Positions 4,995 through 31,636 of a stretch of DNA of 37,038 nucleotides are shown one piece after another (position 1 is the first letter of the stretch; every line of letters starts with the position of its first letter). The notes beneath the pieces were generated by a model. It was not told the origin of the DNA. It did no database searches and was given only the letters and a program-made list of their open reading frames with translations. Source of the DNA: Candidatus Rifleibacteriota bacterium (GTDB lineage: Bacteria; Muiribacteriota; Ozemobacteria; Ozemobacterales; Ozemobacteraceae); the NCBI GenBank assembly GCA_012520995.1, contig JAAYNI010000041.1:1-37038 (forward strand), in the 5' to 3' direction. The position numbers were made by a program, and so were the translations under genes.

Positions 4995-7289
4995 TTATTG
5001 TTTTTCCAGAGTTGATTCGTAAGTTTCGTCATCGGCACGCTCGACACGGTTTCTGCCGTTTCTCTTGCACACATACAAAGCGCTGTCAGCCATCTTGATC
5101 ATCTCGGCTATACTCTTCGGATTATTCGCCGGAATAGCACAAACGCCTACGCTTATAGTGACTTTCAAATCGCCGGCTTCGCTTTCGAAAACAGCGCTTT
5201 CAACCGCTGCTCTCAGACGCTCGGCAAACTGCATGGCGCCATCGGGCTCTGTTTCAGTAAGCAAAACGCCAAACTCTTCTCCGCCGTATCTGCCAGCTAC
5301 GTCAGTCTCTCTCACGACTTCTCTCACCAAAGTAGCCACTTCCTTGAGAACAAGGTCGCCTATTTGGTGCCCGTAAGTGTCGTTAAATTTCTTGAAGTGG
5401 TCTATGTCAGTCATTATATAGGCAAGAGGAGTTTTATATCGGGCTGCGCGTCTGAATTCTTCTTCCATTCTGGATTCCAAATGTCTGCGAACAACAAGTC
5501 CCGTCAAACCGTCGACTGTCGCAAGATTATAGAGCCTCGCTTTTTCGATTACCACTGCAGCCTGATTTGCCAGAATGACGGAAGTTCTCAGGTCATCTTT
5601 GTTAAAAGCGGAAGCCTGACTGCTTGAAAGGTTCATTACGCCTATCGGGTTATCACGGATAGTCAGAGGCACGCAAATCAAAGACTTAACAAGGCTTTTC
5701 TCATTGCCGCTTTGCGAGAAAGTTCTATCATGAAGGGTGTTTTGTATCAAGCGAGGACGATTTGAGCTGAAGACTTCTCCGGCTATACCTTTGCCCATCT
5801 TGAACATATCTTTGATATCAGAGCCGGCTTCTGCTTTTTCGTCAGGTTCAGCTGTAAGAACAGCTCTCTCAACAAGCTTTTCGTATTTGCCGTCTAACAG
5901 ATAAATAGAGCCTCTTTCAGCATTCAAAGCGGTAATGCCCTTTTCAACTATAGAGTTGAGGGTTTTCTCCAAGTCGCCCATAAAACTCACCGCTCTTGAA
6001 ACTTCGTTGATAACAGCAAGCTCTTTGACTCTCTTAACTAAAAGGCTGTTGGTTCTTTTAAGCTCCTGGAATTGCTGAATAAGCCTTGTAACTGCCCATA
6101 TGACCGGCAACATAATAGCCACAGGAGTTACTATGAGCACATAATCATAATAGAAAAGCAGAAGAGCGGAAAGCAGCCAAAGAGGAGAAGCCGCCAAAAG
6201 CAACAAGTCCGCCCAAATTTCCTGATAACGCCAGAGCAACAAAGCTGCCGCCATCGCGAACATAAAAATCAGCAATATAGCGGTTGTATAAGAAACGCGG
6301 GTAAAGATCCTGTTTTGAAAGATATCATAGAGAAGATTGGCGTGAATTTCCACACCAGGAATCCCGCCGTAGGGCGAAAACTTCAGATCTTCCGCAACAC
6401 CTTCAGCAGTCATGCCAATCAAAACAACCTTTTTAGCCAGCACAGACGAAGGCACTCTGCCGTTCAGAACATCGGCATAAGTGCAAGAAGAAAAGAAGTT
6501 GTGCTTACCCGAATAGTTGACCAAGTAAGAATACATGCCTTTCTTGGCGGCAGGCTCATAGGAATAATCACACCTGAGAGTGCGGCCTCCGATCTTGACT
6601 GTCTTATCAAGATCATTCAGCTCAGGTTCAGCCTCAAAATAGGCTTGAGCTATAGCCAAGCCGAATATCCAGCTGTAAAACTTATCGGTGCTTTGAAGAA
6701 GTTTCAGCTTTCTGATTACGCCGTCCGGGTTCAAGTCTTTATAGTTTATGTCTATATAGCCCTCGTATGGAACAGCTTCTTCAAGAATAGGCGCAGGCCT
6801 GCTTATTGCAACCTGCTTTTTGAAATCGCCAATTTCATTATCCCAAACGAGTTCAGATGAGAAATTGTGCGGCAAAACGACTTTTCTGAATCTGCGTATT
6901 GCATCAGCAAAGGCTTTATCATCTTTCTCTCCGTATGGGGAAGGCTCAGAAAAAATGATATCAAAAGCCGCCAAGGAAGTTCCAGAGTCGCGAAGCACAT
7001 CTAAGAGCCTGCCATGGGTTTCTCTGGGCCAAGGCCAATTGCCCAATTCATCCAAGCAATCGCCCGTAATGTTTACCAAAAGTATGTCTCTGCAAGGCGG
7101 GAGTTCGCCTCTGGTAGAGAATCTGAAATCTAATGTGGCATTCTCGATAGTATTGAAATAGCCGTAGTAAAAGAAAAGCGAGAAAATTGCGGCTATTAGA
7201 AGAGCCAATATAAATTCCCACCCTGGAAACAGCATGCTGTTCCTGGCGGAAATTTTCTTTATTCTGTCTGAAAGTTCGTATTCACTCAT
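4995..7289 (-). CDS. CHASE2-GAF-GGDEF diguanylate cyclase
   Basis: The 764-residue sensor makes c-di-GMP from two GTP. Residue numbers here count from the GTG at 7298. A membrane helix (about 27-48) precedes an extracytoplasmic CHASE2 domain (about 50-330, with LGNWPWPRETHG and the KFSPYGGIPGVEIHANLL block). Three helices follow (about 336-405), then a coiled linker, a GAF domain (about 441-590) and GGDEF (about 593-757). The catalytic motif is GGEEF (672-676), the metal site DIDHFKKFND is intact, and RETD (663-666) is a canonical product-inhibition I-site. I prefer ATG 7289; the Shine-Dalgarno site is weak. It is monocistronic, flanked by repeats. The signal sensed is unknown. Confidence 0.93.
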   Translation of the reverse strand: MSEYELSDRIKKISARNSMLFPGWEFILALLIAAIFSLFFYYGYFNTIENATLDFRFSTRGELPPCRDILLVNITGDCLDELGNWPWPRETHGRLLDVLRDSGTSLAAFDIIFSEPSPYGEKDDKAFADAIRRFRKVVLPHNFSSELVWDNEIGDFKKQVAISRPAPILEEAVPYEGYIDINYKDLNPDGVIRKLKLLQSTDKFYSWIFGLAIAQAYFEAEPELNDLDKTVKIGGRTLRCDYSYEPAAKKGMYSYLVNYSGKHNFFSSCTYADVLNGRVPSSVLAKKVVLIGMTAEGVAEDLKFSPYGGIPGVEIHANLLYDIFQNRIFTRVSYTTAILLIFMFAMAAALLLWRYQEIWADLLLLAASPLWLLSALLLFYYDYVLIVTPVAIMLPVIWAVTRLIQQFQELKRTNSLLVKRVKELAVINEVSRAVSFMGDLEKTLNSIVEKGITALNAERGSIYLLDGKYEKLVERAVLTAEPDEKAEAGSDIKDMFKMGKGIAGEVFSSNRPRLIQNTLHDRTFSQSGNEKSLVKSLICVPLTIRDNPIGVMNLSSSQASAFNKDDLRTSVILANQAAVVIEKARLYNLATVDGLTGLVVRRHLESRMEEEFRRAARYKTPLAYIMTDIDHFKKFNDTYGHQIGDLVLKEVATLVREVVRETDVAGRYGGEEFGVLLTETEPDGAMQFAERLRAAVESAVFESEAGDLKVTISVGVCAIPANNPKSIAEMIKMADSALYVCKRNGRNRVERADDETYESTLEKQ

Positions 7290-7315
7290 GATTAGCACTG
7301 TTTTTATTTCAGGAT

Positions 7316-23748: not shown

Positions 23749-25299
23749 TTGTCTGAAAACAACCCTAATTTTGATATTTCCGTTTATCTGTCGCAAATGC
23801 AAACAGACGAGGAGATCGTCCTCGCAAATTTGGCCTTTGATCCTCCTATGATAGGCAGACAGCTCATAGAAAACCATTTCACCGAAGACGATTTTCAAGG
23901 CTCTCACGCAAACAAAGTATTGCTCTCTGCCATGCTTGAAACATTCGAAGAAAGCGGCAATATTACCTTAGCCGATCTCACAGCAAAACTTTTAAGCAAA
24001 AAGTCAGGAAAAAAAACTCTGCTGGATATTGCAGGAGGCGAAGAAAGAATCAACGGATTAATGATATCCCCTTTCAGCAAAGATGGAGTTCGGCAAGAAG
24101 AAGACATAGAGGAAACCCTTGAACGAATCAGAGCCAGAAATGTCAGGCACTCCGCCAGAAGACACCTGCTGCACTATTCCGAAAGCATGCTCTCAGAGGA
24201 AAAAGACCATCTGGAAATCCTCAACGACTGTATCCGCAAACTCAGAGAAGTTCTGCTGAAAGGCAGTCATACTTACATCAGCACCATAAAGCGCAATTTC
24301 AACGCCATGGAAGAAATGGTGGCAGACAGGCGACTTGCCAACAAGCATTATTTAGGCCTTAAAACCAACTTTCCCCTTTTAATGGATAACCTGAGCGGAT
24401 TCCAAAAAGAATACTATCTAATCACAGCTGGTGCAGGCATGGGCAAATCCACTTTCGCGACTCAGCTAGCTTGGGACTTGGTAACACTGAACCCCTACTT
24501 GAACGTCATTTTCTTCACATTGGATCTGAATCGTTTTGACGTTTTAACAAAAATAACAGCTCAAGCAGGAAAAGTCCCGATAGACTATGTGAAAAACCCT
24601 TTCTCCGTCAGACCCGACCTTGAAGATCAACGCCTAAAAGCCATAGAAGCTGTCAAAAAAGTAGATGACCGCCTTACAATAGTTGACGAATCAACAGGCC
24701 GTCTTTCAATAGATGATATAAAACGCCAAACAAAGAGAATTCGTTTAGAACGCGGCGGCGAAGTCGCAGTCATAATAGATCCCATTTTCAAAATACAGCA
24801 CAAAAACCAGCATGCTATCACTTTCAACGACTCTTCAAATTTTCTCTCCTCAGAACTCAAAAGCCTGAGCGCAGTCGAAGGAGTCACAGTCATAGCTACC
24901 GCAGGCTTGCCGAAAGCAGTAAGCAACAGGCGGCCGGTTAAAGAAGACTTGGCCGAAATAATGGGACTTCTTTATGATCCTTACGCCGTTTTCTTCCTAT
25001 ACTGCGATTACCTTAACGATTTCGAAACACCTTTTCTTGAATGGGAATGGGGCAAAGAAGACAGCTTCATGATTCCAATCACAGAAGCTTTTGTGGCCAA
25101 AAATAAAATGGGACACACAAACGCCAGCATTTTTTTCCGATATTACGAAGCTTATTCCAAGTTCGAAGAATGTGCCCCGCAAGAAGTAGAAAACTATGCA
25201 GCTATGGTGGAAAACCTGGCCAAATACAAAGAATACAAAGACCTGCGTAAAAATGACCCGGCAGGCGACAGTGACTACATTAGGAAAGAAGAGTTCTGA
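23749..25299 (+). CDS. DnaB-family RecA-like ATPase, divergent
   Basis: The 516-residue protein has an N-terminal helical domain like the DnaB N-domain (residues about 15-110, QTDEEIVLANLAFDPPMIG), a linker helix and a RecA-like core. Walker A is AGAGMGKST (227-235, Lys233) and Walker B ends at Asp344 (VAVIIDP). The C-terminal AKNKMGHTNASIFFRYYEAY and SKFEE correspond to the DnaB KNRNGPTG and YTRFE block. Loops differ strongly from replicative DnaB and the context is a signalling/scaffold operon, so it is likely a specialised paralogue rather than the replicative helicase. It starts at TTG 23749 with AGGGGGG 8 bases upstream. Two bases separate it from the TPR gene. Confidence 0.8.
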   Translation: MSENNPNFDISVYLSQMQTDEEIVLANLAFDPPMIGRQLIENHFTEDDFQGSHANKVLLSAMLETFEESGNITLADLTAKLLSKKSGKKTLLDIAGGEERINGLMISPFSKDGVRQEEDIEETLERIRARNVRHSARRHLLHYSESMLSEEKDHLEILNDCIRKLREVLLKGSHTYISTIKRNFNAMEEMVADRRLANKHYLGLKTNFPLLMDNLSGFQKEYYLITAGAGMGKSTFATQLAWDLVTLNPYLNVIFFTLDLNRFDVLTKITAQAGKVPIDYVKNPFSVRPDLEDQRLKAIEAVKKVDDRLTIVDESTGRLSIDDIKRQTKRIRLERGGEVAVIIDPIFKIQHKNQHAITFNDSSNFLSSELKSLSAVEGVTVIATAGLPKAVSNRRPVKEDLAEIMGLLYDPYAVFFLYCDYLNDFETPFLEWEWGKEDSFMIPITEAFVAKNKMGHTNASIFFRYYEAYSKFEECAPQEVENYAAMVENLAKYKEYKDLRKNDPAGDSDYIRKEEF

Positions 25300-25301
25300 C
25301 A

Positions 25302-27191
25302 ATGCACACCACTGAAGTAGAAATGCTTTTGGAAAAAGCGGCAAAAGCCCAAGAAAATGGCAGCGTAGAGCTTGCCGTTATTGAATACGAAAAGCTGCTG
25401 GAAATAAACCCTGACGAGCTGGATGCTCTAAGAAACCTTGCAAAGCTCTACAGCTTCAAGGATCAGCCACGCAAATCCGCAGAGCTTCTAATAAAAGCAG
25501 CCAAAGTTGCCCCCGACAATCCTGAAGTTCTCACTTCCGCAGGAGAAATTTTGGCAAAACTCGGCAACTACGAAGAAGCGCTTGAACATTATAAAGAGGC
25601 GGAAATACTGCGTCCCGATGATATTTACATAAACAGGTCAATAGCCAATATTTACAGAGCTATGGGCAAGTTCAAAGATGCAGCCGCCAAACTGCTCTCA
25701 AAACCGGATGCTCTCAAAACCGACTATGACGAACTGCTTGAACTTGCGGGAGATCTCAAGATGCTCGCCAGATACGAACAAGCTCTTGAGCTGTTTCAAG
25801 ACGCATCAACCTTGAGACCCGATGAACTGCCTCCTCTCAAAGGCATCTACGACTGCCAAATAAAACTGGGCAACAAAGACAAAGCCACAGCCGCATTAAA
25901 AAAAGCCGTATTGCTTAAGAGAAACGATCAAACCATTATAGCCAAACTTGCCGAAACTTATGCAACAGACGGCCAATTCGCAGAGGCTGCAAAAACCCTT
26001 AAAGACGGCATAGAAAATATAGGAGACGCTCCCATTCTCAAGCAGAAATTGGAAGAAATCTCCAGAAGATTGCCCGTTCTCAAAAAGAAGAATGCTCCGA
26101 GCTTGCAGATCGGCGAAGAAGTATGCGAGACGGAAGTCTTTGACATACTTGACTCGCTATACGCAGGCGATATCGTTCCCAAAAGAGCCCTCTACGAACT
26201 GGAAATGCTAAGACATAAGCATCCTGGCGACTCACTGGTCGTAAGAGAGCTGGCTGCTCTTTATTTGCAATCAGGCGCGGCTGACAGAGCTGCGGAAATT
26301 TATTCGGAGCTGGTCTTGACCTATCCGGTCATACCAAAATTCAGAGTAGATCTCTCCAGAGCTTTGGCCGCATCCGGTGACATAGACGCAGCCACAGCAA
26401 CCATCACCTCGGCAAAAGAAGAACTTGGAAATCTCCATGAACTTGAAATAGCCCATATAGAGCTTTGTATTCTCAACCGCAATATGCCGGAAGCCGACCG
26501 CAGACTTGAAGCCTACCTGAACGAATTGCCTGACGACCCCCACGCCCTTTTTCTCTATGCCTACACAGCTCTCAGGCGCGGCAAATTCCGCATATCCGAG
26601 ATGTCTTTCGAAAAGATTCTTACTCTGGGCAAACAAGACGAAGAAGTCTTGCTCTGGTATTCAAGACTCGCTTTGCTTACGGGCGAGCACGACAAAGCCA
26701 TCAAAGCATGGAGAACTCTTGACGACGGTTTCACAAGTCTTGTGGAAGTAGTTTCCGTAGCAGAACTCCTTATAGCTGCAGGACGATTTGACGAAGTTCC
26801 CGCAGAACTCGCCAAAATCGGAGAATATGCTCCAAACTTTATAGAAGATCATCTGCTTTTTGCAAAAGCCTTCTTTTATGCCGCCGATTTCAATACTTCC
26901 CAGAAAGAGCTGGAATTTGTTTTAAAAATGTCAAACGAACATCCTGAAGCCCTTGCCATGGCAGCTATTTCAGCTCTTATAAAATTCAAGGTCGCAAAAT
27001 TTTCAGTCTGCTGGAGACAAGCCTTACAAATAGACTCTCTCTACGCAATACTGCCCTTCGTAGTATTGAAAGAAACCCTTGGCTTTTCCCATCGCGAAAA
27101 AATCAAAAATGAAATCAGAAAAATGCTTCGCATAGCGACACTGCCTCAAGTAGCCAGAGAACGTCTCATGGCCTTGGGCGATATTTTTTAA
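25302..27191 (+). CDS. TPR-repeat scaffold protein
   Basis: The 629-residue protein is built almost entirely of tetratricopeptide repeats. Clear units include NGSVELAVIEYEKLLEINPD (about 18-37), LGNYEEALEHYKEAEILRPD (about 87-106), LARYEQALELFQDASTLRPD (about 156-175), TDGQFAEAAKTLKDGIENIG (about 222-241) and more in the C-terminal half. No signal peptide or membrane segment is seen, so it is cytoplasmic. It is the second gene of the operon, starting two bases after the ATPase stop. It probably holds partners of the ATPase or the FHA protein together. No enzymatic motif is present. Confidence 0.85.
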   Translation: MHTTEVEMLLEKAAKAQENGSVELAVIEYEKLLEINPDELDALRNLAKLYSFKDQPRKSAELLIKAAKVAPDNPEVLTSAGEILAKLGNYEEALEHYKEAEILRPDDIYINRSIANIYRAMGKFKDAAAKLLSKPDALKTDYDELLELAGDLKMLARYEQALELFQDASTLRPDELPPLKGIYDCQIKLGNKDKATAALKKAVLLKRNDQTIIAKLAETYATDGQFAEAAKTLKDGIENIGDAPILKQKLEEISRRLPVLKKKNAPSLQIGEEVCETEVFDILDSLYAGDIVPKRALYELEMLRHKHPGDSLVVRELAALYLQSGAADRAAEIYSELVLTYPVIPKFRVDLSRALAASGDIDAATATITSAKEELGNLHELEIAHIELCILNRNMPEADRRLEAYLNELPDDPHALFLYAYTALRRGKFRISEMSFEKILTLGKQDEEVLLWYSRLALLTGEHDKAIKAWRTLDDGFTSLVEVVSVAELLIAAGRFDEVPAELAKIGEYAPNFIEDHLLFAKAFFYAADFNTSQKELEFVLKMSNEHPEALAMAAISALIKFKVAKFSVCWRQALQIDSLYAILPFVVLKETLGFSHREKIKNEIRKMLRIATLPQVARERLMALGDIF

Positions 27192-27224
27192 AAACTCGCA
27201 AAACAAAAAAAAACATAGCTAATC

Positions 27225-28562
27225 ATGAAAAAAAACAAACTAAAATTAGACCCAAAAAACAAAGAGCTTCTCGCAAAAGCTCTCAAAGATGCCGAAAAAC
27301 TGAACAAAAAATCTGCCAGAACCTTTATTACAAACTTCATAGATCTGGGAGGCTACTCAGTGGCGGTATTGCTGGACAGTCTCCATCTAATGCCCTCTCA
27401 TATGAGAAAATATGCGCTGGAAAACCTCAGCTACTTTTTTCTGTATGGCGGCTCCCACACAAAGAAACTTTTAAAAAGACTTATAATCGCGATAAAACGC
27501 TCAAAACCCTATTACAGACCTCAAGTCTTGGCAATGCTGGCAGACCTGCTATTCAGATCTCAATTCGAATGCTCGGATAAAAGAGCTTTGAGAATAGCCA
27601 ACAGCCTAAGCAGCGAAATAGAATCGCAATTCCGAAAAAGCACGAAACTCAGCCAAGCCGCAGCTCCCTTGGCATTTGCCTACAGGGCGGAACTGGAGTT
27701 CCTGCTGCCTCACATGCTGAAAGCCCTCAACAATTCTCTTAGCCAAGAAAGCTCCTTCTCTGAATACCTTTTTATTGAAGACGCAATTACAGGCATACAA
27801 AACATAGGCGGCAAAGAACTTCTCAAGTTTTTGGCCAATCCGACCTCAAAACAAGCCCTGGTTCACTTGAAAATGGCTTGGCGCAACCGCGATCCCGACC
27901 TTCTGAAGAAAATACTCAGAATAGCCAAACAACTAAGCGAAGATTTCCCTAAAGCTCTTGTCTCCTTCGCCTCCCAATCCGAAATGGCCGTTTCTTTCTA
28001 TCCTTTCCTGACAGAAGCAGCCGAAAGCGAAGAGCCTGAAGTGGCCTCAATGGCAAAAAAAGCCCTCCAAAAAGACATGGAAAGCAATTTCTCCATGCTC
28101 GCTTCCTGCCTAAATGAAGAATCTCCTGAAGCCAGAATCGTCGCCATCAACTCTATGAGCGGATTCCCAAAAGAGCTTTCAGGCGAACTGCTAACAGCCG
28201 TTGCAGGAAATATAAAGGAACCCTTCTCTGTCAGAGTTGCAGCCATAGAAGCTCTTTATTATCAGAAAAATGCTAATGCTATCGAAAAAATATTAACATT
28301 ACCGGAAATTCCGCCGCAAATTAAATCCAGAGCCAAAGTCTATCATGCAATGGCAAAACCTCGCAAATCTGCTATTAAAACTCTGACAAAATACTATTTA
28401 AACTCCCCGAAAAATGAAGCGGACGATCTGGAATTCTACTTATCAACATATTCTGCGCGAAGCGATTTGCCCTACTTAAACAAATTAGCTGAAACACTGC
28501 CGATACAAAACAAGAGCAGAATAGAGAAAATCATTTCCTCTGCAAAAGGAAGAAACAAATGA
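27225..28562 (+). CDS. HEAT-like helical-repeat protein
   Basis: The 445-residue, Lys-rich, all-helical protein has paired helices of about 30-40 residues through its length (for example YYRPQVLAMLADLLFRSQ, EEPEVASMAKKALQKDM, ESPEARIVAINSMSGFP, PFSVRVAAIEALYYQKN), as in HEAT or PBS-lyase repeats. It has no signal peptide. Such solenoids bind proteins; no catalytic residues are evident. ATG 27225 follows a 33-base gap without a clear Shine-Dalgarno site. The 3' end overlaps the next gene by 4 bp. It is the third gene of the operon. No specific family name is recognised. Confidence 0.72.
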   Translation: MKKNKLKLDPKNKELLAKALKDAEKLNKKSARTFITNFIDLGGYSVAVLLDSLHLMPSHMRKYALENLSYFFLYGGSHTKKLLKRLIIAIKRSKPYYRPQVLAMLADLLFRSQFECSDKRALRIANSLSSEIESQFRKSTKLSQAAAPLAFAYRAELEFLLPHMLKALNNSLSQESSFSEYLFIEDAITGIQNIGGKELLKFLANPTSKQALVHLKMAWRNRDPDLLKKILRIAKQLSEDFPKALVSFASQSEMAVSFYPFLTEAAESEEPEVASMAKKALQKDMESNFSMLASCLNEESPEARIVAINSMSGFPKELSGELLTAVAGNIKEPFSVRVAAIEALYYQKNANAIEKILTLPEIPPQIKSRAKVYHAMAKPRKSAIKTLTKYYLNSPKNEADDLEFYLSTYSARSDLPYLNKLAETLPIQNKSRIEKIISSAKGRNK

Positions 28563-29998
28563 AGATTTCTATTACTGACAAACAAGGAAACGTTCTATAC
28601 GAAGGAAGCCCGAAACTCACCGACGACGGCATCACAATAGGCACCTCGCCTGATGCCGGAATAAGAATAACAAAAATGGGCATAGCATCTGAACAGATAC
28701 GCCTCAGATTTAACTCGGAAGGCGATTTGACACTCCATGATATACAGAGTCCTTTCGGGACAAAAGTCGACGGCAAAACAATAAAACCCGGATTCATAAC
28801 CGTTATTCCGGAAGAGTGCATCATAGAAATGTCAGAGGATGTCTTCGTGACCCTTTCCAAAGAAGCAAGCGTCACATCAGAAAAAAATTATTCCGAAACA
28901 TTCTTTCCATATTTTCTGGCGAGAAACGAAACCTATGTGCGCGAAGCTTTTGATGACATAAGAACAAAGATTCCGCGCGACTATTATTACGCTCTCTCAT
29001 CTCTTGAAGGCGAGCTGGTCGGAAAAATAAGAGAACTTTCGGCAGTTCTGGATATAAGTTATGCCATAAACGCCATAGCCAGTTTCTCAAGACTTTTAGA
29101 TTTCACTCTGGAAATGTCCTTAGCCGTCACTGGCGCCGAAAGAGCATTAGTATTGCTCTTCAACGAAGATCTTAACAGGCTTGAGCCGGCAGCGGACATG
29201 AATTTCTCTCAAAAAGACATAAACAGAGAAATGAGAGCAATCTGGCCGATAATCAAAAAAACTTTCGAAACCGGAACCGCAGCAATCGGACCCGCCAGAA
29301 ATTTTCCCTCGGACAGCCCTTCAACAACATTAGCAGAAACAGGCATAGAGTCAATCGCCGTTTTGCCCCTGCAAGAATTTTCCGCGATAATAGGCGTTCT
29401 TTACATTGACTCAAAGCAATTGTCTCCTTTGCTCACGGTCAAGTCAGAACAGCTCCTCAAGGTTTTCGCATCACAAGCCACCACAGCTATAACCAGAGCC
29501 AAACTTCTGCACGAGGCCACTGCGGATCCTGTTACAGGAGCAGCCAACCAAACATTTCTTATGCGCCGCCTCGCAGAAGAATACCATCGAGCAATTCGCC
29601 ACGAAACCCCTCTTTGCGTTCTCTTGGGCGAGATCGACGGTTTTTCCTCCATGGAGAGAATATACGGACAAGCAGGAGTAAAGCGTCTGCTGAAAAACAT
29701 CGCGGCTATTATAGCAGGCGAAATGAGAATACATGATTTGGCAGCCAGGACAAGAAACGATCTTATGGCAATAATTCTCCCCGAAACGCCTCTGGAAGGC
29801 GCAAAAACAGTAGCGGAAAAACTGAGAAAAACAATTGCCAACACAAGATTCAGAGTAGGCGACAGCTCTGTCGGATTGACTATGTCTTTCGGAACTGCCA
29901 TATTGCTAAAGTCGGCAAAAAAACCCTCAGATCTCCTCACTATGGCCTCAAAATCTCTTGAAAGAGCCAAAGAACTGGGCGGAAACAGAGTCATATAA
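28559..29998 (+). CDS. FHA-GAF-degenerate GGDEF protein
   Basis: The 479-residue cytoplasmic protein has an FHA-like domain (1-100, DDGITIGTSPDAGIRI, SPFGTKVDG), a GAF domain (about 175-320) and a C-terminal GGDEF-fold domain (about 322-479, beginning ADPVTGAANQTFLMRRL). The catalytic GGDEF is replaced by RNDLM (399-403), and the Mg-binding Asp and substrate Asn-Asp of the usual DIDxFKxxND are replaced in EIDGFSSMERIYG. RIHD (390-393) remains exactly five residues before the motif, which is the I-site spacing. So it is probably not a cyclase but may bind c-di-GMP. The FHA domain would read phosphothreonine; no Ser/Thr kinase is in the window. It starts with ATGA overlap. Confidence 0.87.
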   Translation: MKISITDKQGNVLYEGSPKLTDDGITIGTSPDAGIRITKMGIASEQIRLRFNSEGDLTLHDIQSPFGTKVDGKTIKPGFITVIPEECIIEMSEDVFVTLSKEASVTSEKNYSETFFPYFLARNETYVREAFDDIRTKIPRDYYYALSSLEGELVGKIRELSAVLDISYAINAIASFSRLLDFTLEMSLAVTGAERALVLLFNEDLNRLEPAADMNFSQKDINREMRAIWPIIKKTFETGTAAIGPARNFPSDSPSTTLAETGIESIAVLPLQEFSAIIGVLYIDSKQLSPLLTVKSEQLLKVFASQATTAITRAKLLHEATADPVTGAANQTFLMRRLAEEYHRAIRHETPLCVLLGEIDGFSSMERIYGQAGVKRLLKNIAAIIAGEMRIHDLAARTRNDLMAIILPETPLEGAKTVAEKLRKTIANTRFRVGDSSVGLTMSFGTAILLKSAKKPSDLLTMASKSLERAKELGGNRVI

Positions 29999-30016: not shown

Positions 30017-31636
30017 ATGCTGGACAACAAAAAATTAAACGAATTAGAAAAACTCATAGGAATTAAAACGCCGCAAACTCCTAAAGGCGGCATAGAAAAC
30101 TTGGCAAAAGATATAGTCAAAGGAGCCGACAAAAAACAAAATTCTCAAACCGAGACTCCTCACGACCGTTACTGGGAAATCCAGAAACTTTTCATAGCCA
30201 TGCACGACAAGCATGGAAAAGACTTCGCCTTTTTCCTCGCAGATCTCCTAGACATATTAATCGACGGAGAAATGCAGCATAAATTTGTCATGGAGATGTT
30301 CGACGCAAAAACAAAAAACATGAAACAGATAGCAGCAAAAGCTGCTGACGGAACCTCTCAAGAAAAAGAGCGAGCCAGAAAACTGCTCAACCAGACGATG
30401 CAAATAGCGAAAGCTGAAGTTGGCGGCAGCAAAAGAGTTTTCACAACACATTTCATAAAGAGAAAACGCCTTATTACAGAAATCTTTTTAAACACTCTGG
30501 AATATGAAACCTGCAAAAAGCTGATTAAACATATAGAAAACACCTGCTCAGAAATACTCGAAGATGAAATTCCTGAAACCAGGGAAAAACGCTTGGAAAC
30601 CCTGAACGAAATACTCGACAATCTCCGCTACGAAACATGTGAGAAGGATGTCTACAAAATATGGGCTATTCTGGATGCAGACAATTTTAAATATCTTGAA
30701 GAAGTCTTCTTCAAGAGCAAAGAAATCTACCTCGTAAGACCCGATTTTTATGATGACTTGGATAAAACCTACAGAGAAGGCAAAAATCTTATAAAACTGC
30801 TCCTTAAAGATCTTGAGGATTCGGAAGACCTGGACTCCGCAAAACAAGAGATTTATATTTCCTACTTGCAGGATATCAGAGACATATACACGCATCATCA
30901 CTTCGTGCTTAAGCACTACTACTCTACCAGACCTAGAAAAAGCAAAAAAGAGCTGGAGGATGAAACAGACGAGTTCAATGAAAAAATTTCCGAACTTCGC
31001 GAGCAAATAGCAGAAATGCGCGAAGAAAACGAAGAACTTCAAATTTCCTGCGATCAAGCAAAAGCTTCGGAAAGATTCTGCAAAGCCGAATGTGCCGACT
31101 TGGAGCAAAAACTCAAAAAATATAATCCGGGAGAAGTCAGAAAACAGCTGAATTCGGCAGAAGCCAAAGTCAACGCCATGGAAAAAGAGCTTAAAGCAAC
31201 CCTCCTGGAAGATGCCGAGTTGAGAACAGACTTCATGGAGCTGGCCGAAGAAAACCAAAAGCTGCTTGAAGAACTCCAAAACCTTAACGCCTTGCCCGAT
31301 GAATCAGCATACTCAGTCAATGATATGCTGAAAAACAAAAGAGTCGTAATTTTCGGAGGCGTAGGAAGAGATCACTATGCCGCAGTCCTGAAAGAAGCTG
31401 GAGTAAAATACGAAGACTACGAATGGTATGACGGCTACCACACGATCAGCCAAGCCAGAACAGCTGAAATAGTCGGAAGAGCCGATTTAATAGTAGTAGT
31501 CACAAGCTATGCCGGACATCTCCTTCTTTACCAAGTAAGACCCTGCATAGAAAAACACCAGCTTTTCCTGAAAATTCACAGCAGCGGCGCAGGCTCGCTC
31601 AAAAAAGAAATAAGAAACCACTATTCAAAAAAATAA
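30017..31636 (+). CDS. Coiled-coil protein with C-terminal DUF2325 domain
   Basis: The 539-residue protein has an N-terminal helical region (1-300) of unknown type, a long coiled coil (about 308-420, KISELREQIAEMREENEELQ) and a C-terminal DUF2325 Rossmann-like domain (about 436-535). The latter shows KRVVIFGGVGRDHYAAVLKE, GYHTISQARTAEIVGRADLI and SSGAGSLKKEI. DUF2325 has no settled function; the GGVGRDH loop looks like a nucleotide or phosphate binding turn. It is the last gene of the five-gene operon, 18 bases after the FHA gene. Enolase follows 108 bases later with its own promoter. No membrane segment is present. Confidence 0.8.
   Translation: MLDNKKLNELEKLIGIKTPQTPKGGIENLAKDIVKGADKKQNSQTETPHDRYWEIQKLFIAMHDKHGKDFAFFLADLLDILIDGEMQHKFVMEMFDAKTKNMKQIAAKAADGTSQEKERARKLLNQTMQIAKAEVGGSKRVFTTHFIKRKRLITEIFLNTLEYETCKKLIKHIENTCSEILEDEIPETREKRLETLNEILDNLRYETCEKDVYKIWAILDADNFKYLEEVFFKSKEIYLVRPDFYDDLDKTYREGKNLIKLLLKDLEDSEDLDSAKQEIYISYLQDIRDIYTHHHFVLKHYYSTRPRKSKKELEDETDEFNEKISELREQIAEMREENEELQISCDQAKASERFCKAECADLEQKLKKYNPGEVRKQLNSAEAKVNAMEKELKATLLEDAELRTDFMELAEENQKLLEELQNLNALPDESAYSVNDMLKNKRVVIFGGVGRDHYAAVLKEAGVKYEDYEWYDGYHTISQARTAEIVGRADLIVVVTSYAGHLLLYQVRPCIEKHQLFLKIHSSGAGSLKKEIRNHYSKK

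Follow-up and report, generated by a model that had tools for sequence, protein, structure and literature searches.

Receptors for cyclic dimeric GMP (c-di-GMP) that derive from dead cyclases and use the product-binding site (I-site) of a GGDEF domain have been known as single cases. CdgA (Bd3125) of Bdellovibrio bacteriovorus is described with a degenerate GGDEF domain (GVNEF) and an RxxD five residues upstream, without cyclase activity and with a Kd of about 2 uM for c-di-GMP (PMC3271064). SgmT of Myxococcus xanthus is presented, like CdgA and PelD, as a c-di-GMP-binding receptor with this residue pattern (PMC3509222), and PelD (Pseudomonas aeruginosa, Bacillus cereus) is reported as an RxxD receptor in which a GAF domain is followed by a degenerate GGDEF domain (PMC7112168). 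Here we analysed a gene in a window of 37,038 nucleotides (contig JAAYNI010000041.1, the whole stretch of DNA under study) from a Candidatus Riflebacteria genome (Ozemobacteraceae). The gene encodes an FHA-GAF-degenerate GGDEF protein, which is probably a catalytically dead pseudo-cyclase and an I-site c-di-GMP receptor working with the product of the neighbouring DUF2325 gene. Its mode of action most likely resembles that of CdgA, SgmT and PopA, in which a dead cyclase serves as the receptor. The novelty lies in an architecture that includes a decayed FHA domain, in DUF2325 as an obligate partner, and in catalytic loss by degrees alongside intact sister genes, so that not a single case but intermediates and intact relatives are found within one family. 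The gene and its parts are as follows.

28559-29998, plus strand: FHA-GAF-degenerate GGDEF protein of 479 residues, the proposed c-di-GMP receptor (open reading frame and Pfam)
28631-28831, plus strand: FHA domain, residues 25-91 (Pfam), phosphothreonine-binding residues mostly gone (GT for GR, ASEQ for SRxH, P for T)
29090-29494, plus strand: GAF domain, residues 178-312 (Pfam)
29516-29989, plus strand: degenerate GGDEF domain, profile match of 92.7 bits versus 161-176 bits for the genome's six intact GGDEF domains
29597-29599, plus strand: R347, aligned with R198 of WspR, the I-site arginine supplied by the partner chain; invariant in linked copies
29726-29737, plus strand: I-site RIHD, residues 390-393, with R390 and D393
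29753-29767, plus strand: RNDLM at the GGDEF position, residues 399-403 (translation and alignment)
29819-29821, plus strand: K421 at the position of the third I-site arginine, +31 from the Arg of RxxD (alignment)

The translation bears out what the initial annotation had read at the motif, namely RNDLM in place of GGDEF and RIHD exactly five residues ahead of it (LAART between them), which is the spacing of an I-site. The intact cyclase with the same spacing, to which it had pointed, is a CHASE2-GAF-GGDEF protein at 4995-7298 (RETD-VAGRY-GGEEF). It had also held that the metal and substrate residues are lost; this is almost right, 2 of the 10 catalytic positions of the degenerate active site (A-site) being kept, but a little too sweeping, as the motif retains Asp at its third position (D401) and Glu, a conservative replacement, stands in for the first metal Asp (E358). 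D360 and N330 are retained as well, and the G-G of the motif and the equivalents of K332, N335, D344 and R446 are gone. For the catalytic positions we assume the PleD numbers D327, K332, N335, D344 and R390. The PleD residue numbers K442 and R446 are named in the SgmT report (PMC3509222). The GGDEF match of Pfam in the window protein covers residues 320-477 with 89.5 bits, and the GGDEF domain of an AlphaFold model superposes on c-di-GMP-bound 3ign with a root-mean-square deviation of 1.0 A; the predicted template-modelling score of the receptor model was 0.48, and the relative placement of its domains was therefore left unused.

Orthologues were searched in 24 genomes of the family at E up to 1e-50, and 28 copies were found in 22 of them. 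In the other two, there is an N-terminal fragment at a contig edge (G015; 54% identical over residues 1-99) and a DUF2325 gene near a contig start (G007). No full-length relative including the FHA domain was present outside the family among the matches listed, from 95 genomes, which cover the GAF and GGDEF part only. A DUF2325 gene lies directly downstream of the receptor gene on the same strand in all 23 degenerate linked copies, with 30-163 base pairs (bp) between the matches, and such copies occur once per genome (twice in G012). Frames are open and full-length in 22 of these 23. The remaining one, in G021, is frame-broken, with a separate downstream piece that reads RIND at the I-site, and was excluded from the alignment, which leaves 22 linked copies aligned. 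This receptor copy of GWC2_50_8 (L031/L109, G021:C205) consists of two frames beside an unresolved stretch and may be an assembly fault.

The conservation of the two sites differs markedly. R347, R390, D393 and K421 are identical in the 22 aligned copies, each of which has RxxD five residues ahead of the A-site motif, whereas 2-8 of the 10 catalytic residues are gone from each copy and all lack the equivalent of PleD R446. RxxD is thus kept among the orthologues while GGDEF drifts, as the initial annotation had expected of a receptor. The motif reads RNDLM, GPDSF, GSDSF, GADSF, GADTF, GAETF, SGEEF or ASDEF, and GGDEF in five copies. Of the catalytic positions, 2 are kept in the window copy and 3-8 in the rest of the linked set; the 4 intact paralogues with sequence in this region all have the full 10. 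Together, the linked copies form a graded series with 7-8, 4-5 and 2 residues left, plus one lineage at 3, and with intact sister genes at hand, the change from an enzyme into a receptor can be followed.

Site rates in the linked clade tell the same two sites apart. The four I-site positions have a mean rate of 0.18 (ranks 9-17 of 163), and only 0.035% of random four-position sets are equally slow (permutation p 0.00035). The catalytic positions, with a mean of 0.99 versus a domain mean of 0.84, evolve at the background rate (78% of random sets are as slow or slower). The control, 45 intact cyclases of this family with RxxD, is equally slow at the I-site and the active site (0.079 and 0.064, domain mean 1.06), indicating that the constraint left the A-site and stayed at the I-site. 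These results support the probable c-di-GMP receptor that had been proposed from the window alone.

The likeness to PelD and CdgA drawn in the initial annotation is apt, and SgmT may be named likewise, but each of these proteins differs from the receptor. CdgA is from a different organism and has apparently different domain partners, and the part of the report used here describes no DUF2325 neighbour (PMC3271064). In SgmT, a histidine kinase and a receiver are reported between its two domains, and the residue at +31 is an Arg (R794) where the receptor has Lys (PMC3509222). PelD is described as a membrane protein of the Pel polysaccharide operon, with no FHA domain in that description and with a third Arg (R402/R395) in place of the Lys (PMC7112168). 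The PelD family is absent from the Pfam matches at E up to 0.1 in the window proteins, and there are no pel genes among the neighbours scanned (9 window proteins and 10 proteins from the loci of relatives). R198, R242 and D245 of WspR (Pseudomonas aeruginosa) correspond to R347, R390 and D393 of the receptor, and both proteins have Lys at +31; R198 falls opposite R347 when 44 residues are counted back from R242 of WspR along the alignment. Unlike the receptor, WspR is reported as an active response-regulator cyclase, which binds c-di-GMP in crystals and of which the R242A and R198A variants are highly active yet nucleotide-free on purification (PMC2270323).

From the residue pattern, its conservation, the site rates and the gene linkage, we infer how the receptor could work. 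Intercalated c-di-GMP dimers would be bound at the I-site by R390xxD393 and K421, completed by R347 of the partner chain, as in WspR. The binding would clamp two chains together, or the GGDEF domain to its own GAF/FHA part, and the clamped state would then be passed to the neighbouring coiled-coil DUF2325 protein as the output.

The intact paralogues suggest where such a protein came from; they were not noted in the initial annotation, nor were the DUF2325 neighbour and the FHA decay. For five of the 28 copies, the contig has no DUF2325 gene; one of these contigs, G002:C180, breaks off within the gene. A Ser/Thr kinase homologue lies directly upstream of all five (L032, L043, L044, L046 and L059 by tblastn; the kinase of L043 was assigned by Pfam), and the kinase query has no match in any linked locus searched. 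In a tree of 27 copies, the DUF2325-linked and the kinase-linked kinds separate with support of 99-100 if the tree is rooted between them. Judged by what we take to be the FHA consensus, the Arg of GR and the Ser of SRxH are retained in 5 of 5 unlinked paralogues; in the linked copies the Arg is gone from 19 of 22 and the Ser from 17 of 22, and the window copy has lost both.

DgcB of Bdellovibrio, in which an FHA domain is likewise fused to GGDEF, is described as a cyclase that is active and whose FHA domain binds phosphothreonine; its GGDEF dimer is clamped by c-di-GMP at the I-site, and a kinase has been proposed as its input (PMC6733907). It is nearer to the intact kinase-linked paralogue than to the receptor: the window copy lacks the DgcB-type FHA residues (GR, SxxH) and has RNDLM instead of the GG[DE]EF active site. 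With the FHA domain canonical in the kinase-linked copies and decayed in the linked ones, the kinase-adjacent paralogue has the look of a DgcB-like cyclase under phospho-control, whereas the DUF2325-linked protein appears to have shed both its phosphothreonine input and its catalytic output. The receptor could have arisen when a gene was duplicated in a family to which kinase-coupled FHA-GAF-diguanylate cyclases also belong. The DUF2325-linked duplicate would then have given up catalysis and the greater part of its phosphothreonine pocket while retaining the I-site.

Several observations weigh against a c-di-GMP receptor. The third I-site residue is Lys and not Arg: position 421 is K throughout the 22 linked copies and in the 4 intact paralogues with sequence there, and R in all but one of the 75 intact GGDEF domains. 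For B. cereus PelD, R395A is reported to have abolished binding (PMC7112168), although WspR has Lys at this position too. Five linked copies (L024-L028) still read GGDEF at the motif and keep 7-8 of the 10 catalytic positions, and weak activity may therefore have belonged to the older linked form. The retention of the I-site along the long branch of the window copy was rejected as significant by itself (p 0.58). Besides, all 75 intact GGDEF domains that were sampled in the family contain R-x(2,3)-D, as RxxD in 45 and as RxxxD (one extra residue before the motif) in 30, with Arg in all, so that ancestry supplies the motif in this lineage; RxxD alone was rejected as a mark of a receptor, being weak. 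The 75 domains remain from 78 examined, of which 3 were degenerate, and as they were drawn from the high-scoring matches and the window's own genome, the sample is biased toward intact domains.

Because this lineage carries the I-site arginine almost everywhere, a structural role for the I-site residues is the main rival, though an unlikely one in our estimate. The pseudo-enzyme would then be a scaffold, whose GGDEF fold dimerises or docks the DUF2325 partner and holds RxxD for the fold or an interface, without c-di-GMP. It would agree with this that R347, an Arg at or beside 390, and D393 are found in all 75 intact domains, the 30 RxxxD domains included, that the three other degenerate GGDEF domains of the genome (L008, L009 and L010; G000:C74, C46 and C39) retain R347, R390 and D393 equivalents too, and that CdpA is reported to require its degenerate GGDEF domain but not c-di-GMP (PMC3974145). 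However, the activity reported for WspR R242A and R198A argues that these residues are dispensable for the fold (PMC2270323), and RxxD is reported in about 53% of GGDEF domains (PMC3974145), which leaves about 47% without it.

Sensing of a guanine nucleotide (GTP, GDP or (p)ppGpp) that still binds to the degenerate A-site is very improbable. The retained D360, D401 and N330 would fit such a ligand, and crystals of PleD with ppGpp and pppGpp are named in entry titles, but the loss of the G-G and of the K332/N335/D344 and R446 equivalents, together with the background rate of the active-site positions, speaks against it. A decaying gene on its way to loss is hardly credible and is largely refuted by the 22 intact copies: the window copy is on the longest terminal branch of the tree (0.86 substitutions per site) and the G021 copy is frame-broken, but the frames of the other linked copies are open, the DUF2325 neighbour is fixed in 23 of 23, and the window copy keeps 29 of 33 GGDEF positions that are invariant elsewhere.

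The c-di-GMP receptor thus remains our preferred explanation, and its two flanking genes in the window are as follows.

30017-31636, plus strand: DUF2325 protein of 539 residues with a helical N-terminus, a long coiled coil and a C-terminal DUF2325 domain (Pfam and model), the obligate neighbour
27225-28562, plus strand: HEAT-repeat protein (Pfam), overlapping the receptor gene by 4 bp

The fixed neighbour offers a testable partner for a domain of unknown function. DUF2325 is found in 23 of 39 genomes across the phylum, all in the family of the receptor. The model of the protein is helical, with long coiled-coil-like helices (310-422) and a C-terminal alpha/beta domain, which is highly conserved. 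Identification through the fold failed (nothing with E <0.2 in Foldseek), the sequence search against PDB gave nothing better than E 0.029, and in NCBIfam there were coiled-coil SMC matches only, far below the cut-off.

Downstream of DUF2325, 12 of the 23 linked copies have a gene for an extracytoplasmic function (ECF) sigma factor at no more than 75 bp, 14 of 23 have it at no more than 400 bp, and one more has it at ~3 kb; it was not found in 8 of 23, the window included, and the best match to it in the window's genome is 34% identical and on a different contig. The gene after the ECF gene in L048 starts with HLKSCSDCR (read by eye) and has no Pfam match; we take this to be a motif typical of zinc-binding anti-sigma factors and the product to be a putative anti-sigma factor. 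A dedicated relay, in which the c-di-GMP state would pass through the pseudo-cyclase, without phosphothreonine input, to DUF2325 and in most lineages on to the downstream ECF sigma factor and its putative anti-sigma factor, is a doubtful proposal at present. If true, it would be the first signalling role for DUF2325 and a new c-di-GMP route into ECF-sigma-controlled transcription. Of the open-licence papers searched by full text, only four were listed for DUF2325, none of them on c-di-GMP by title, and those listed for Riflebacteria with c-di-GMP or GGDEF, or for FHA with a degenerate GGDEF receptor, have no such system by title or abstract.

Upstream, the HEAT-repeat gene and the receptor gene are likely on one transcript in the window genome. 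Genes for a DnaB-like ATPase, a TPR protein and the HEAT-repeat protein (23749-28562) abut the receptor gene, none of them conserved there in the relatives examined, and may be a lineage-specific addition. The TPR and HEAT genes were rejected as parts of the system, since they are not conserved beside the gene in relatives (one weak TPR match, L060). In several Riflebacteria, large HAMP-SpoIIE phosphatase-like proteins that fall into one cluster, often as a tandem pair, are encoded upstream of the receptor gene (L048:2865-8799, similar in L050-L053).

For the c-di-GMP components of the window genome, ten GGDEF matches were found: six strong ones (161-176 bits), the receptor, and three weaker degenerate ones, which are the three named above, all with RxxD, and possibly further receptors. 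There are 4 matches of the HD-GYP type (HD_5), no EAL match in the genome and a single weak PilZ match. With six intact GGDEF domains, four HD_5 domains and one weak PilZ match, c-di-GMP is likely made and degraded in the cell, and non-PilZ receptors are likely present. In addition, on contig G000:C52 an ECF sigma homologue (47586-48089) lies ~0.4 kb from a domain of the HD-GYP type (48514-48957) on the same strand, which is another possible link between c-di-GMP and an ECF sigma factor.
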